From positions 1-64,000 of the forward strand of contig NZ_LMDC01000031.1 in assembly GCF_001425705.1 (NCBI RefSeq): DNA of 64,000 nucleotides, given 5' to 3'. Below, piece by piece: positions 15,721 through 19,153 of this stretch. Within the stretch, counting starts at the first letter, position 1. The number at the start of each line of letters is the position of its first letter. The notes beneath the pieces are model-generated. The model made no database searches. It was not told the DNA's origin and saw only the letters and a list, made by a program, of their open reading frames with translations. The DNA is from Pelomonas sp. Root1217 (GTDB lineage Bacteria; Pseudomonadota; Gammaproteobacteria; Burkholderiales; Burkholderiaceae_C). Both the position numbers and the translations under genes were made by a program.

Positions 15721-16629
15721 ATGCACAACAGGCATCTGGCAGGCAAGGTGGCCCTGGTGGCCGGCGCCACGCGCGGCGCCGGCCGTGGCATCGCGGTGGC
15801 CCTGGGCGAGGCCGGAGCGACGGTCTATTGCACCGGGCGCAGCACGCAGGCGGCCCGCTCGGAGATGGATCGACCCGAAACCATCGAGGAGACGGCAGCT
15901 CTCGTCGATGCTGCGGGCGGCCGTGGCATCGCGGTAAAGGTCGATCATCTGGTGGCCAACGAAGTGCGCGATCTGGTCGCTCGTATCGAACGTGAACAGG
16001 GGGCACTGCACGTTCTGGTCAACGACATCTTCGGCGCGAGCAAGATCGAATGGGGCAAGACCGTCTGGGAGTCTGATCTCGAATTCGGCCTGCAAAGCCT
16101 GCGCCTGGCCATCGACACTCATGCCATCACCAGCCACTTCGCGATCCCGCTGCTGCTGAAGGCGCCGGGCGGCCTGGTGGTGGAGATCAATGACGGCACC
16201 GAGGAATACAACGGCACGCGCTACCGCAATTCCTTCTTCTACGACCTTGCCAAGGCGGCCGTGCTGCGCATGGGTTTTGCGCTCGGGCATGAACTGAAGT
16301 CGCATGGCGCGACCGGGCTGTCACTGACGCCAGGCTGGCTGCGCTCCGAGGCCATGCTGGAGGCGTTTGGTGTGCGGGAGGACAACTGGCGCGACGCCAT
16401 CGCTCGCGTGCCGGGCTTCGCGATTGCCGAAAGCCCGGCCTTCGTCGGGCGGGCCGTCGTGGCGCTCGCGACCGACCCTGATGTCACGCGCTGGAACGGC
16501 CAGTCGCTGTCCAGTGGGCAACTGGCCCGCATCTACGGCTTCACCGACCTGGACGGCAGCCAGCCCGACGCCTGGCGTCACATGCTCGACAGCGAGGCGG
16601 GCGACATTGACGTGGCGGCCTATCGTTAG
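15721..16629 (+). CDS. SDR family oxidoreductase
   Basis: A 302-residue short-chain dehydrogenase with the variant glycine motif AGATRGAGRGIA (residues 14-25), a GRST segment after beta-2 that suggests NADP use, and YDLAK as the Tyr-x3-Lys pair. An insertion before the active site and a longer C-terminal region set it apart from the classical 250-residue type. Similar proteins are annotated only as SDR oxidoreductases. The last 4 nt overlap the convergent acetyltransferase-like gene. Physiological substrate unknown. Confidence 0.8.
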   Translation: MHNRHLAGKVALVAGATRGAGRGIAVALGEAGATVYCTGRSTQAARSEMDRPETIEETAALVDAAGGRGIAVKVDHLVANEVRDLVARIEREQGALHVLVNDIFGASKIEWGKTVWESDLEFGLQSLRLAIDTHAITSHFAIPLLLKAPGGLVVEINDGTEEYNGTRYRNSFFYDLAKAAVLRMGFALGHELKSHGATGLSLTPGWLRSEAMLEAFGVREDNWRDAIARVPGFAIAESPAFVGRAVVALATDPDVTRWNGQSLSSGQLARIYGFTDLDGSQPDAWRHMLDSEAGDIDVAAYR

Positions 16630-17273
16630 ATCGCGTCGAGATTTGCCCGGAAGCGTTCGAAGAAACGCCCCACGTGCACGCCGTCGCACAGTGCATGGTG
16701 CACATCGACGGCGACCGGCATCAGCAGCCGGCCGTTCGTCTCGGTGAAGCGGCCGAAGGCCACCTTGGGCCGGTCGTCGCCCTGACCGCGTGCGTGGGTG
16801 AACGCAGTGAAACCCAGCCAGGGCAGCGCGGTCATGTGGACGAGCGTTTCCTCGCGCACGTCGCCGGGCTCATCGGCGGCGAAGAGGTCGCCGCTGGCAC
16901 GGCGCACGCGCTCGATGCCCGGCCTGGCGCGGGCGGCAAAGCTGGCGAGCGAAGGTTCGCGGGGCAGCGTCAGGAAGCCAAAGCTGCCGTCGTCGCGCAG
17001 CACCGTCGTGCTGGCATGGATGACGCTGAACTCGCGCACGCCACGGCCCTCGTCAGTCAGGGTCTGGCGCATCGCGTCGATGCCGTTGGCGGCCTCGAGC
17101 GCGGCGTGGTGGTAGGCCAGCCAAGGCGTGGCGCCGTGAGCAGCGGCGCGCTCGCGCAGGCCGGTCACATCCACCGGCGCGGTGATGCTGAAGGCCGGCT
17201 GGGCCATGGTACGGAAATGCGCCAGCGCGGCGCGGCGCGGCCAGGCGTCGAGAGGGATGTCACGGTCTTGCAT
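16626..17273 (-). CDS. Chloramphenicol acetyltransferase-like protein
   Basis: A 215-residue protein of the CAT fold. The C-terminal VHHALCDGVHVGRFFE contains the family catalytic motif HHxxxDG with catalytic His at 193 and structural Asp at 197. PREPSLASFAARARPGIERVR in mid-protein is also CAT-like (family block). Classical CATs acetylate chloramphenicol as trimers. Chromosomal homologues such as this, in a metabolic neighbourhood with no mobile element, often have unknown acyl acceptors, so resistance should not be assumed. Confidence 0.75.
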   Translation of the reverse strand: MQDRDIPLDAWPRRAALAHFRTMAQPAFSITAPVDVTGLRERAAAHGATPWLAYHHAALEAANGIDAMRQTLTDEGRGVREFSVIHASTTVLRDDGSFGFLTLPREPSLASFAARARPGIERVRRASGDLFAADEPGDVREETLVHMTALPWLGFTAFTHARGQGDDRPKVAFGRFTETNGRLLMPVAVDVHHALCDGVHVGRFFERFRANLDAI

Positions 17274-17376: not shown

Positions 17377-17730
17377 TCAGCCGCTCAGCTCGCCGCCTTG
17401 CATCGGCCGCACGCCGAAGTCATAGAGGGCCCGCTGCAGTTCCTCTGCGCGATCCTCGCCAAGGTCGGCAAAGAGGCGGCTGTTGGGCGTGCTGCGGATC
17501 TGGCCGATCTGGTTGTAGCCCAGCGTCTTGGCGCACGCCAGGGTGCGCGACGTCAGCGGCAGGCACTCGAGCGGCGCCTGGTCGGCGAGGCTCAAAAGCC
17601 GGGCATAGGTTTCGGGAGAGATGGACACGTTGCCTGCACTGGCGGGCGCCGGATCGGAATGCAGGGGCTTGGAGGGACTGGCCGCAAGCGCGGAGCTCGG
17701 AGTATGGAGCTGGTCGCTATGGCAGTTCAT
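17377..17730 (-). CDS. RNA polymerase alpha-CTD-like small protein
   Basis: A 117-residue protein with a disordered, Ser/Pro/Ala-rich N-terminus (1-38) and a compact helical C-terminus (about 40-112). In that part, PLECLPLTSRTLACAKTLGY, IGQIRST, then LGEDRAEELQRALYDFGVRP follow the helix-hairpin-helix pattern of the RNA polymerase alpha C-terminal domain (LSVRALNCL...IGDL...LGKKSLTEIK...L). It may bind DNA or a transcription factor, as a free alpha-CTD mimic. It lies downstream of a LuxR gene, a lux box and an 18-codon ORF, all on the same strand, and has its own terminator. Function is inference. Confidence 0.6.
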   Translation of the reverse strand: MNCHSDQLHTPSSALAASPSKPLHSDPAPASAGNVSISPETYARLLSLADQAPLECLPLTSRTLACAKTLGYNQIGQIRSTPNSRLFADLGEDRAEELQRALYDFGVRPMQGGELSG

Positions 17731-17766
17731 CGTCCCGATGCATCCTGTCCGGCGCGGGTGTTTCGG

Positions 17767-17823
17767 TCAGCCACCAAAGCGTGGAACACCGAGGATTTCG
17801 AGAAGCAGGTCGATGATTAACAT
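17767..17823 (-). CDS. Putative 18-aa peptide between luxR and the alpha-CTD-like gene
   Basis: A short ORF, MLIIDLLLEILGVPRFGG, with GGAG 7-10 nt before its ATG, 36 nt ahead of the alpha-CTD-like gene and 69 nt after a lux box. Leu/Ile-rich residues 2-11 would make an amphipathic helix with acidic residues at 5 and 9. It could be a leader peptide coupling translation of the next gene or a small bioactive peptide. Short ORFs arise by chance, so this needs expression evidence. Confidence 0.35.
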   Translation of the reverse strand: MLIIDLLLEILGVPRFGG

Positions 17824-17892
17824 GGGGGGCTCCGATCGGGGAAAGGCAGAAAGTCGCTGAGCCGGACTTTCCTTGTTTTCACCCCCCTAGGA

Positions 17893-17912
17893 ACCTGGCA
17901 AGTCTGCTAGGT
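17893..17912 (-). promoter_or_regulatory. lux box 1
   Basis: ACCTGGCAAGTCTGCTAGGT is a 20-bp inverted repeat (7 of 8 outer positions paired) with the canonical CT-N12-AG spacing of LuxR-family binding sites. It lies 9 nt after the luxR stop and 69 nt upstream of the 18-codon ORF. That position suits LuxR activation of the downstream leftward genes. It matches lux box 2 at 17 of 20 positions. Confidence 0.7.
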
Positions 17913-17920
17913 TGCGCTCG

Positions 17921-18649
17921 TCAAAGAATGCCGGCGGCCACGCACTTGAGCACGGCTTGGTGCTTGGACGTCACCTCCAGCTTGCGCATCGCATTGCCGA
18001 GATGGAAGTTTGCCGTCTTCTCGCTCATGCCCAGGATGACACTGACTTCCCACGCGGTCTTGCCCTGGGCCGTCCAGCTCAGGACATCCAGCTCGCGCTT
18101 GGTCAGCTTGGGCAGGTCGCCCTTGCTGAGCTTGGGACCCAGCAATCGGTCCGCGGCGGTCAGCGCGTGCGCTGCGAGAAGTTGCAACCCGGCAACCATT
18201 TGCATCAATTGCGCACCGGAGCCGGGAAGCTTTTCGTCCCGATCCACGCCGAGAACGAAGTGCTTGTCTCCTGGCAGATGCAGCTTGACCGCGATGCCGG
18301 TCTGGTAGCCGAAAGGCGCCTGCATTTCCCAAAGCTCGCCGACGCCCGCCGCCACGTAGGTGGCCTGGTCATAGACGACAGGCACCGTGTGCGTCATCAA
18401 ATGGCCCACCACCGGGTCCCGCAGGGCATCGTTGCGGTCTTTCGCCGCTTCCAGATAGCCTGCGGGCGTGTTGCCGTAGGTGGTGATCTTCATGGTGTCG
18501 TCTTTCAGGACGCCACGCATCAGCATGCCCGAGATGATCGGAAAGCCCATGGCATCCGCCGTCTTGACAAGACGGCGCTCGAAGCCCTCGAAGTCTTCGC
18601 TGAGACCGACATCAATCAGCTGCTGATAGTTGATTTCGGGCTTGCCCAT
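17921..18649 (-). CDS. LuxR-family quorum-sensing regulator (solo)
   Basis: A 242-residue regulator with an N-terminal autoinducer-binding domain (about 18-165) and a GerE/LuxR helix-turn-helix at 182-242 (LTKRELDVLSW, then KTANFHLGNAMRKL). Acyl-homoserine-lactone pocket residues are largely kept: Y58 (usually Trp), Y65, D78-P79 of the DPV motif. No luxI synthase is within the window, so it is a solo or has a distant partner. The ATG at 18649 was taken as the start; TTG at 18658 is the alternative and lies inside lux box 2. That box directly abuts the ATG, suggesting self-regulation. Confidence 0.85.
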   Translation of the reverse strand: MGKPEINYQQLIDVGLSEDFEGFERRLVKTADAMGFPIISGMLMRGVLKDDTMKITTYGNTPAGYLEAAKDRNDALRDPVVGHLMTHTVPVVYDQATYVAAGVGELWEMQAPFGYQTGIAVKLHLPGDKHFVLGVDRDEKLPGSGAQLMQMVAGLQLLAAHALTAADRLLGPKLSKGDLPKLTKRELDVLSWTAQGKTAWEVSVILGMSEKTANFHLGNAMRKLEVTSKHQAVLKCVAAGIL

Positions 18650-18669
18650 ACCTGCCAAGTCTGCCAGCT
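18650..18669. promoter_or_regulatory. lux box 2, abutting the luxR start codon
   Basis: ACCTGCCAAGTCTGCCAGCT has the CT-N12-AG form and matches lux box 1 at 17 of 20 positions. It occupies the 20 bases immediately before the luxR ATG, where bound LuxR would block its own expression. It is also 67 nt upstream of the divergent gene at 18737, so it could activate that gene. Confidence 0.65.
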
Positions 18670-18736
18670 TGTTCCCCGCTGGCCCTGACCAGAGACTGCC
18701 CTCCCGTTCGAATCACACGACACAGAGGAGCCGTCC

Positions 18737-19153
18737 ATGTCAACCCTGATCCAGTTGCCCGAAGGCAGCGTCTGCTGGCCGGTGGCCGCACTGTCCAGCG
18801 CCGCCCAGGATGTCCGCCACGCCCGGACCCAGGTGCACCGCGCGCGCCGCGACGAGCACCGCATCAGCGGCTCGACGCGTTGGGAGCGTTGTTATGCCGA
18901 TGCCTGCGCCTGGGTGGAATGGGACTGGGTCGAGATCACCGAGGGCACCATCGCGCAGGCCGATCCGCTCAATGTGCGCTCCAACGTGTTGCTGCTGGAC
19001 GCCCGCGGCCGCCCGCTGCTGTCGTCGCGCCGCCGCGCGACGCTGGCCACGCTGGTGTATCTGCTGCCCTGGCAGGGGCCGGTGCTGGACACGCTGAGGA
19101 TGGACCCGTCTTCGCGCCGCGCCGTCGTGGTCGATCAACGCCTGGCTGCCTGA
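18737..19153 (+). CDS. Hypothetical protein, 138 aa
   Basis: Not recognised. A soluble protein with no signal peptide or membrane segment. It has an Arg-rich middle (about residues 28-52), an acidic Trp-containing stretch (WVEWDWVEIT), and a C-terminal part with VLLLDARGRPLLSSRRRA followed by a hydrophobic LATLVYLLPW. AGAGGAG lies 6 nt before the ATG, a strong ribosome site. It is divergent from the LuxR gene with lux box 2 in the shared 87-nt gap, so quorum control is possible. The thioesterase gene follows after 68 nt. Confidence 0.65.
   Translation: MSTLIQLPEGSVCWPVAALSSAAQDVRHARTQVHRARRDEHRISGSTRWERCYADACAWVEWDWVEITEGTIAQADPLNVRSNVLLLDARGRPLLSSRRRATLATLVYLLPWQGPVLDTLRMDPSSRRAVVVDQRLAA

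Follow-up and report, generated by a model that had tools for sequence, protein, structure and literature searches.

In the textbook view, LuxR-family proteins are receptors of acyl-homoserine lactones (AHLs), and signalling by pheromones in the form of gene-encoded peptides belongs to Gram-positive bacteria. The locus described here, from Pelomonas sp. Root1217, raises the question of what a LuxR protein senses when its gene lies between two closely matching lux boxes, no luxI gene accompanies it, and the downstream box faces an open reading frame (ORF) of only 18 codons. The window analysed is a stretch of 64,000 nucleotides (contig NZ_LMDC01000031.1, positions 1 to 64,000). From comparison with related genomes, we infer that the locus is probably a peptide-pheromone quorum-sensing unit with a LuxR-family receptor, and that the window holds a leaderless member of this group.

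The locus and its two lux boxes

Table 1. Features of the luxR locus, in window coordinates
Feature	Position	Strand	Remarks
luxR-family receptor gene, 242 aa	17921..18649	-	ATG at 18649; autoinducer-binding and GerE DNA-binding domains
Downstream lux box (box 2), ACCTGGCAAGTCTGCTAGGT	17893-17912		3' of the luxR stop, facing the 18-codon ORF and the 117-aa gene
Upstream lux box (box 1), ACCTGCCAAGTCTGCCAGCT	18650-18669		In the gap that separates luxR from the divergent rsaM-like gene, directly at the luxR ATG
18-codon peptide gene, MLIIDLLLEILGVPRFGG (translation)	17767..17823	-	Proposed signal peptide
117-aa gene	17377..17730	-	Stand-alone helix-hairpin-helix domain; 83 aa if it starts at a possible GTG (17628)
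rsaM-family gene (DUF4902)	18737..19153	+	Divergent from luxR; PF16245, E 5.8e-7, over cut-off
PF00302 chloramphenicol acetyltransferase family gene	16626-17273	-	E 3.1e-19

The first-pass annotation of the window had described two 20-mers, one touching the luxR start codon and the other past its stop, facing the 18-codon ORF and a small gene. Both were found at the coordinates given and in that placement, with 17 of 20 positions in agreement (3 of 20 differ). The view that two such sites were improbable by chance was borne out, as 0.02 were expected in the window and none of 100 shuffles gave two, in a calculation that is partly circular because the pattern was built from the sites themselves. 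A degenerate pattern derived from both boxes, with up to 3 mismatches allowed, matched only these two sites within the window. Across the whole 6.65-Mb genome the same pattern matched the two boxes and one 3-mismatch site, and its backwards control also gave one match; the many equally good matches that had been named as grounds for rejecting the boxes were therefore not found at that stringency. A scan with a looser lux-box pattern, CTNNCANNTCTGNNAG with 2 mismatches, found 59 sites against 50 expected, and this pattern was dropped for lack of enrichment.

Conservation was examined in a sample of 20 Roseateles/Pelomonas genomes that included the window genome. An intact orthologous LuxR was present in 17 loci, the window among them, the other 16 proteins being 71-89% identical to the window LuxR. 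Both boxes were kept at all 17 loci. Information content per column was 1.71 bits for the downstream box (0.35 in its luxR-side flank) and 1.92 bits for the upstream box (0.79 in its flank). The 35 columns past the downstream box were also conserved (1.38 bits) and appear promoter-like. This phylogenetic footprint over 17 loci argues strongly for the boxes.

In these alignments the conserved downstream lux box precedes a conserved short peptide gene. The ORF had exactly 18 codons at 17/17 loci, its start, stop and C-terminal motif were conserved, and Gly12, Pro14 and Gly17 of the peptide were invariant. It was usually preceded by a CAGGAG-type Shine-Dalgarno sequence; in the window, a Shine-Dalgarno-like CGGAG lies just upstream. 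The in-frame pN/pS of the ORF was 0.69, compared with 0.83 and 1.79 in the shifted frames, the codons being too few for this difference to decide. The earlier interpretation was right about a compact circuit of LuxR and its pair of matching boxes, without luxI. Its treatment of the ORF as incidental was not upheld, given this conservation of length, start, stop and C-terminal motif.

The short peptide gene and its precursors across the family

The bacterial family was surveyed by searching 299 genomes, and the LuxR clade was found in 80 of them at E 1e-50. The rule used to call a peptide gene behind luxR was frozen before the hold-out genomes were drawn, yet it had been devised on most of the loci counted. 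By this rule a peptide was found behind 96 of 150 distinct clade LuxRs. The corresponding counts were 2 of 150 for regions on the reverse strand, 7 of 1500 for shuffles, 4 of 598 for stretches that follow other long ORFs, and 0 of 12 for LuxRs outside the clade. A relaxed rule, set post hoc, gave a peptide behind 119 of the 150 clade LuxRs against 8 of 150 reverse-strand regions. In the first hold-out genus, all 8 new genomes satisfied the frozen peptide rule and 6 had a box by rule. In the second, the frozen rule was satisfied in 2 of the 9 newly drawn genomes with the LuxR, and a double-glycine (GG) leader precursor was seen in all 9 once the Shine-Dalgarno requirement was dropped, again post hoc. 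As read from these genomes, the luxR-peptide order is found again and again in the bacterial family. A divergent rsaM homologue usually accompanies it, and lay by 113 of the 119 clade LuxRs with a peptide (tblastn). The peptide gene adjoins the receptor gene and is conserved with it, as is characteristic of peptide quorum-sensing systems. An order-level search of 399 genomes matched 13 at E 1e-40 or better, of which 2 belonged to the window's family; the other 11 gave no peptide by the frozen rule.

The final rule found no peptide behind 31 of the 150 clade LuxRs, and all of these were counted as misses. Twenty lay in loci with several clade luxRs, five (L061, L072, L075, L086 and L094) had a peptide that was visible by eye outside the rule, and the remaining six were L022, where luxR is cut by a contig end, L185, which is part of an array found whole in the genome of L181, and L095, L144, L148 and L156. 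An exporter gene was present downstream in 16 of the 31. A few of the 119 peptide picks were doubtful (for example L088), and in L091 and L112 the wrong ORF came first.

Several clade luxRs per locus were seen at L101, L117, L171, L179, L180, L181, L140, L133 and L025. The peptide gene was 3' of the last luxR in the row in the first six of these and 3' of the first in L140; in L133 the other luxRs were on the opposite strand, and L025 was without a peptide. The extra luxRs at such loci are possibly spare or eavesdropping receptors. Two separate short ORFs, both ending in FPRVGF, were seen behind the one LuxR of L083. The window genome itself carries a second clade LuxR (contig C28, approximately 247,045-247,750; L002, L033), with the peptide MSLWDVLAELLGLPYTGG, a downstream box-like palindrome and a divergent rsaM homologue.

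A lax box rule says little by itself: it was satisfied by 119 of the 150 clade LuxRs, but 264 of 598 controls and 536 of 1500 shuffles passed it too. A sharper clade consensus, CTGTAAGANNTGACAG, occurred exactly near 57 of the 150 clade LuxR stops and, with at most 1 mismatch, at 64 of the 74 loci with a GG-leader precursor. In these GG-leader loci the spacing was nearly constant, the peptide ATG lying at a median of 90 bp beyond the box (quartiles 87-93, range 31-99). Upstream boxes like that of the window were not general; by a palindrome rule, 58 of 145 clade loci had one in front of luxR.

The 119 peptides comprised 74 GG-leader precursors, mostly ending in xPxxxW, and 45 leaderless forms. 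Examples of the former are MQKAQSKSSESTNLHSAPQVLDLDVLEQVAGG followed by five copies of GPNGGW, and a precursor in which ...LLHLVSGG is followed by two copies of APKSTW. Between 2 and 5 core copies were present in 25 of the 74 GG-leader precursors, and the copies were identical within the precursor in 23 of these 25, which is what a processed signal would need. From locus to locus the PxxxW cores, of about 6 residues, were variable. None of the precursors tried (3 in one run, 5 in another) had a match above cut-off in NCBIfam or Pfam. Leaderless forms of 9-20 aa occurred, and those like the peptide of the window included MSLFDLLLEALGLPRNGG, MNAFKTSQTTPNIPRVGGW, MNPIAVIASQRDFPRTGGW and MICLPRVGW. 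A Rubrivivax locus has MSYSTNTSFPRGGWGAVLDWLFGA. A C-terminal xPxx motif was common to the leaderless and GG-leader forms.

An exporter gene (HlyD and/or a C39 ABC transporter) was found downstream on the same strand at 66 of the 74 GG-leader loci, compared with 0 of the 45 leaderless loci (window included), 36 of which had less than 2.5 kb of flank, although the HlyD gene starts at about 350 bp in the others. One representative of each exporter component was identified as Peptidase_C39 (PF03412, 8e-36) and HlyD_3 (PF13437, 1.6e-17), and PF00664 was also matched. On the receptor tree the leader state switches about 4 times, which leaves 3-4 independent transitions behind the association between leader and exporter; nearly all were in the expected direction, but they are too few for significance in a sign test (p 0.25). 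The window peptide carries no recognised secretion signal and has no exporter linked to it at the locus; one unlinked C39 transporter is present in the genome. In place of a leader the peptide has a hydrophobic N-terminal segment, MLIIDLLLEILG, and its C-terminal VPRFGG is taken as the putative counterpart of the xPxxGGW / xPxxxW core of its relatives. The conserved length, start, stop and C-terminal motif of the 18-codon ORF, together with the leader precursors and exporters found in the same position in relatives, make it likely that the ORF encodes the signal or a signal precursor.

The receptor and its candidate ligands

The window LuxR matched PF03472 (E 7.8e-12) and PF00196 (E 1e-18), both over cut-off, and is thus a LuxR-family protein of the quorum-sensing type. 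An AF2 model had a mean pLDDT of 91.6, and its best Foldseek matches were SdiA, LasR, RhlR and QscR; the predicted fold is that of an ordinary AHL-type LuxR. The pocket was compared at the positions of LasR W60, Y64, D73 and W88, read off an alignment with LasR; these are the residues that contact the AHL, the W60 tryptophan contacting its lactone. At these positions the window LuxR has Y, A, D and Y, only the Asp being kept, and the full set of AHL-contact residues was therefore not found in this sequence comparison with LasR. Among 55 clade sequences, the W60 position was Tyr or Phe in 51, the D73 position (Asp78) was Asp in all, and at the W88 position 43 had Trp and the other 12, among them the window LuxR, had Tyr.

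The remark in the first-pass annotation that no luxI was in view could be extended to the whole genome, where a profile search gave no PF00765 match; with no cognate luxI in its genome, the window LuxR is a LuxR solo. No PF00765 match was obtained in the 14 control genomes of that search, and the same model detected a strong LuxI in 8 of 56 genomes of the family. These 56 had been picked from 97 genomes with a clade LuxR, and those of the 56 without a strong LuxI gave no match (46) or a weak one (2). Weak PF00765 matches were also seen in 8 of the 20 same-genus genomes (L035-L042). These would be candidate LuxI synthases, but the 2 of the 8 proteins that were tested were exosortase-associated acyltransferases (TIGR03694, E <1e-72), and LuxI counts by Pfam alone can therefore mislead. 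When compared with plasmid records, the window LuxR gave 269 matches, all below 60% identity, and a GG-leader relative gave none at E 1e-30; this relative had 8 matches of 27-30% among phage records. PADLOC returned only a weak match to a CARF model, for LuxR.

One alternative is that the protein is an AHL-responsive solo. It would hear the AHLs of neighbours or, where a genome has an unlinked LuxI, as a few do, its own; the peptide would then be merely one of the regulated products, for example a small effector. The LuxR fold, the conserved Asp78 and the AHL receptors among the best structural matches are all in keeping with this, as are the strong LuxI genes in 8 of the 56 genomes and the rsaM-family neighbour, which in the available text of PMC10710839 is part of AHL circuits elsewhere. 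An eavesdropper needs no LuxI, and hence the absence of LuxI does not exclude such a solo. However, the equivalent of the LasR W60 tryptophan is replaced in 51 of the 55 clade sequences, the 8 genomes with a strong LuxI (best E of 2.5e-20 or lower) have it either on a different contig from the clade luxR or at a distance of over 150 kb, and identical repeated cores with an exporter beside the receptor are hard to explain on this basis. We consider an AHL solo unlikely. AHLs had been put forward as the ligands to test; the evidence favours instead the peptide encoded by the ORF, given the secretion-leader precursors and exporters that relatives carry in the same position.

Covariation between core and receptor was examined with a correction for identity, pocket columns being compared with 31 control columns of the DNA-binding domain (the pocket list being that of LasR). 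Pocket columns covaried more with each of the two core residues that come directly after the proline than 30 of the 31 controls did, the uncorrected pocket-versus-rest p values being 0.036 for the first and 0.012 for the second. For other parts of the core, controls were as high in 2 of 31 (residue before the proline), 6 of 31 (third residue after it) and 7 of 31 (whole core), and plain mutual information between core and receptor was not distinctive, 6-20 of 28 control columns doing as well. This covariation with the pocket is suggestive only, and might indicate that the mature peptide is bound by the receptor.

The secreted product might also be a toxin, since a GG leader with HlyD and a C39 ABC exporter is the arrangement of class II microcins as well. 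A microcin-like bacteriocin locus under LuxR control is nevertheless improbable, as the cores are about 6 residues long and identically repeated, and as leaderless forms of 9-20 aa exist; the microcin features, a GG-leader precursor and a C39 ABC exporter, are present in relatives and absent at the window locus. It is similarly improbable that the peptide works within the cell that makes it, whether as a translated leader or as a small intracellular modulator (of LuxR, for instance), a reading most plausible for the leaderless Roseateles form with its missing leader and linked exporter (0 of 45 leaderless loci, 36 with less than 2.5 kb of flank), but opposed by the secretion precursors and exporters of relatives at the same position and by the C-terminal xPxx motif common to both forms.

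The proposed circuit and its relation to known systems

For a secreted peptide signal, the following circuit can be proposed. The mature peptide, or a derivative, once back in the cytoplasm, would bind LuxR, and the complex would act at the conserved, putative lux-type boxes. Activation at the downstream box would yield more peptide, together with the alpha-CTD-like protein encoded behind it, and so close a positive loop. The upstream box abuts the luxR ATG and hence is not easily an activator site for luxR; it seems better placed for activation of the divergent rsaM-like gene and/or repression of luxR, and LuxR acting there would provide a brake. In the Roseateles short form, where the hydrophobic segment stands in place of leader and linked exporter, VPRFGG would be the signal part, and the peptide would presumably still be secreted.

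Several known systems share parts of this arrangement. Like the class C LuxR solos with non-AHL endogenous signals, the receptor has ligand-binding and GerE domains and no luxI partner; it differs in that the candidate signal is a gene-encoded peptide adjoining the receptor (PMC10134790, in the part available). Peptides are mentioned in that part of the paper only in peptide-transporter contexts and in a reference to PipR. PipR of Pseudomonas sp. GM79 is a LuxR homologue that does not respond to AHLs and needs a peptide ABC importer for its peptide-like signal (Ser-His-Ser), an imported compound that originates in plant material or protein hydrolysates; the gene is flanked by peptidases and the importer, with no propeptide in the extracts available (PMC4981722). 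The likeness lies in a LuxR homologue with a peptide-like signal; in the present case the candidate signal has its gene next to that of the receptor, and relatives carry exporters. Two adjacent genes, for a small propeptide and its receptor, also make up the Gram-positive RRNPP systems, in which the propeptide is paired with an intracellular receptor, as far as the text available of PMC10075063 goes. Receptor family, phylum and DNA site are different, the present system having a LuxR and lux boxes in Betaproteobacteria. In the streptococcal Rgg/SHP systems the signals are short hydrophobic peptides, some of which end in Gly-Gly. The layout of rsaM and luxR corresponds to the type 6 arrangement of a divergent rsaM-luxR solo, for which Pelomonas is among the genera listed (PMC10710839); boxes, a downstream peptide gene and exporters are not mentioned in section 4 of that paper.

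A search of the open-licence literature in PMC returned, among the matches listed, no LuxR receptor paired with a gene-encoded peptide. With a little less assurance than for the locus itself, we think it rather likely that a whole Gram-negative class is represented here, in which LuxR-family receptors read ribosomal, secreted xPxxxW / xPxxGG peptides instead of AHLs, receptor and pheromone diversify together, spare receptors stand in tandem arrays, and the Roseateles alpha-CTD mimic behind the same lux box is a new modulator. If so, the two textbook schemes would meet in one LuxR clade that has a peptide gene of its own along with export leader and exporter. For a clade of LuxR genes without luxI, the sequence of a candidate ligand could then be taken from the genome and the peptide made synthetically, and the question of LuxR solo ligands would become directly testable. 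Because core sequences vary from locus to locus and mostly repeat exactly within a precursor, short synthetic peptides and reporters in laboratory strains can serve to test specificity.

The gene that shares the upstream box with luxR, the divergent rsaM-family gene at 18737-19153, was omitted from the coordinates of the first-pass annotation. Its product matched PDB 4o2h (BCAM1869) at E 2.8e-7, and with a DUF4902 domain encoded beside luxR it belongs to the RsaM family; it is probably a modulator. A second conserved block, TGACCAGAGACTGC (+ strand), lies at window positions 18670-18736, between the upstream box and the rsaM-like gene, and is possibly the rsaM promoter.

Homologues of the 117-aa gene were found at all 17 same-genus orthologous loci and at none of the other 133 clade LuxR loci. 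The AF2 model had a pLDDT of 92-96 over residues 41-100. The top nine Foldseek matches were all RNA polymerase alpha, with a TMt of 0.79-0.85 for the isolated CTDs in the top five; the best E was 3.5e-3, none being below 1e-3, and other helix-hairpin-helix proteins (RAD51, Pol iota) ranked next. In a profile search the protein gave weak matches to the alpha subunit, below cut-off. The modelled protein is a stand-alone domain most like the RNA polymerase alpha-CTD, and its gene is possibly co-transcribed with the peptide gene. LuxR-type activators contact the alpha-CTD, and a stand-alone protein of this kind behind a lux box could therefore tune LuxR-dependent transcription, which we offer as a guess. 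The PF00302 gene adjoins the circuit in 13 of the 19 same-genus loci examined with 1.5-kb flanks.
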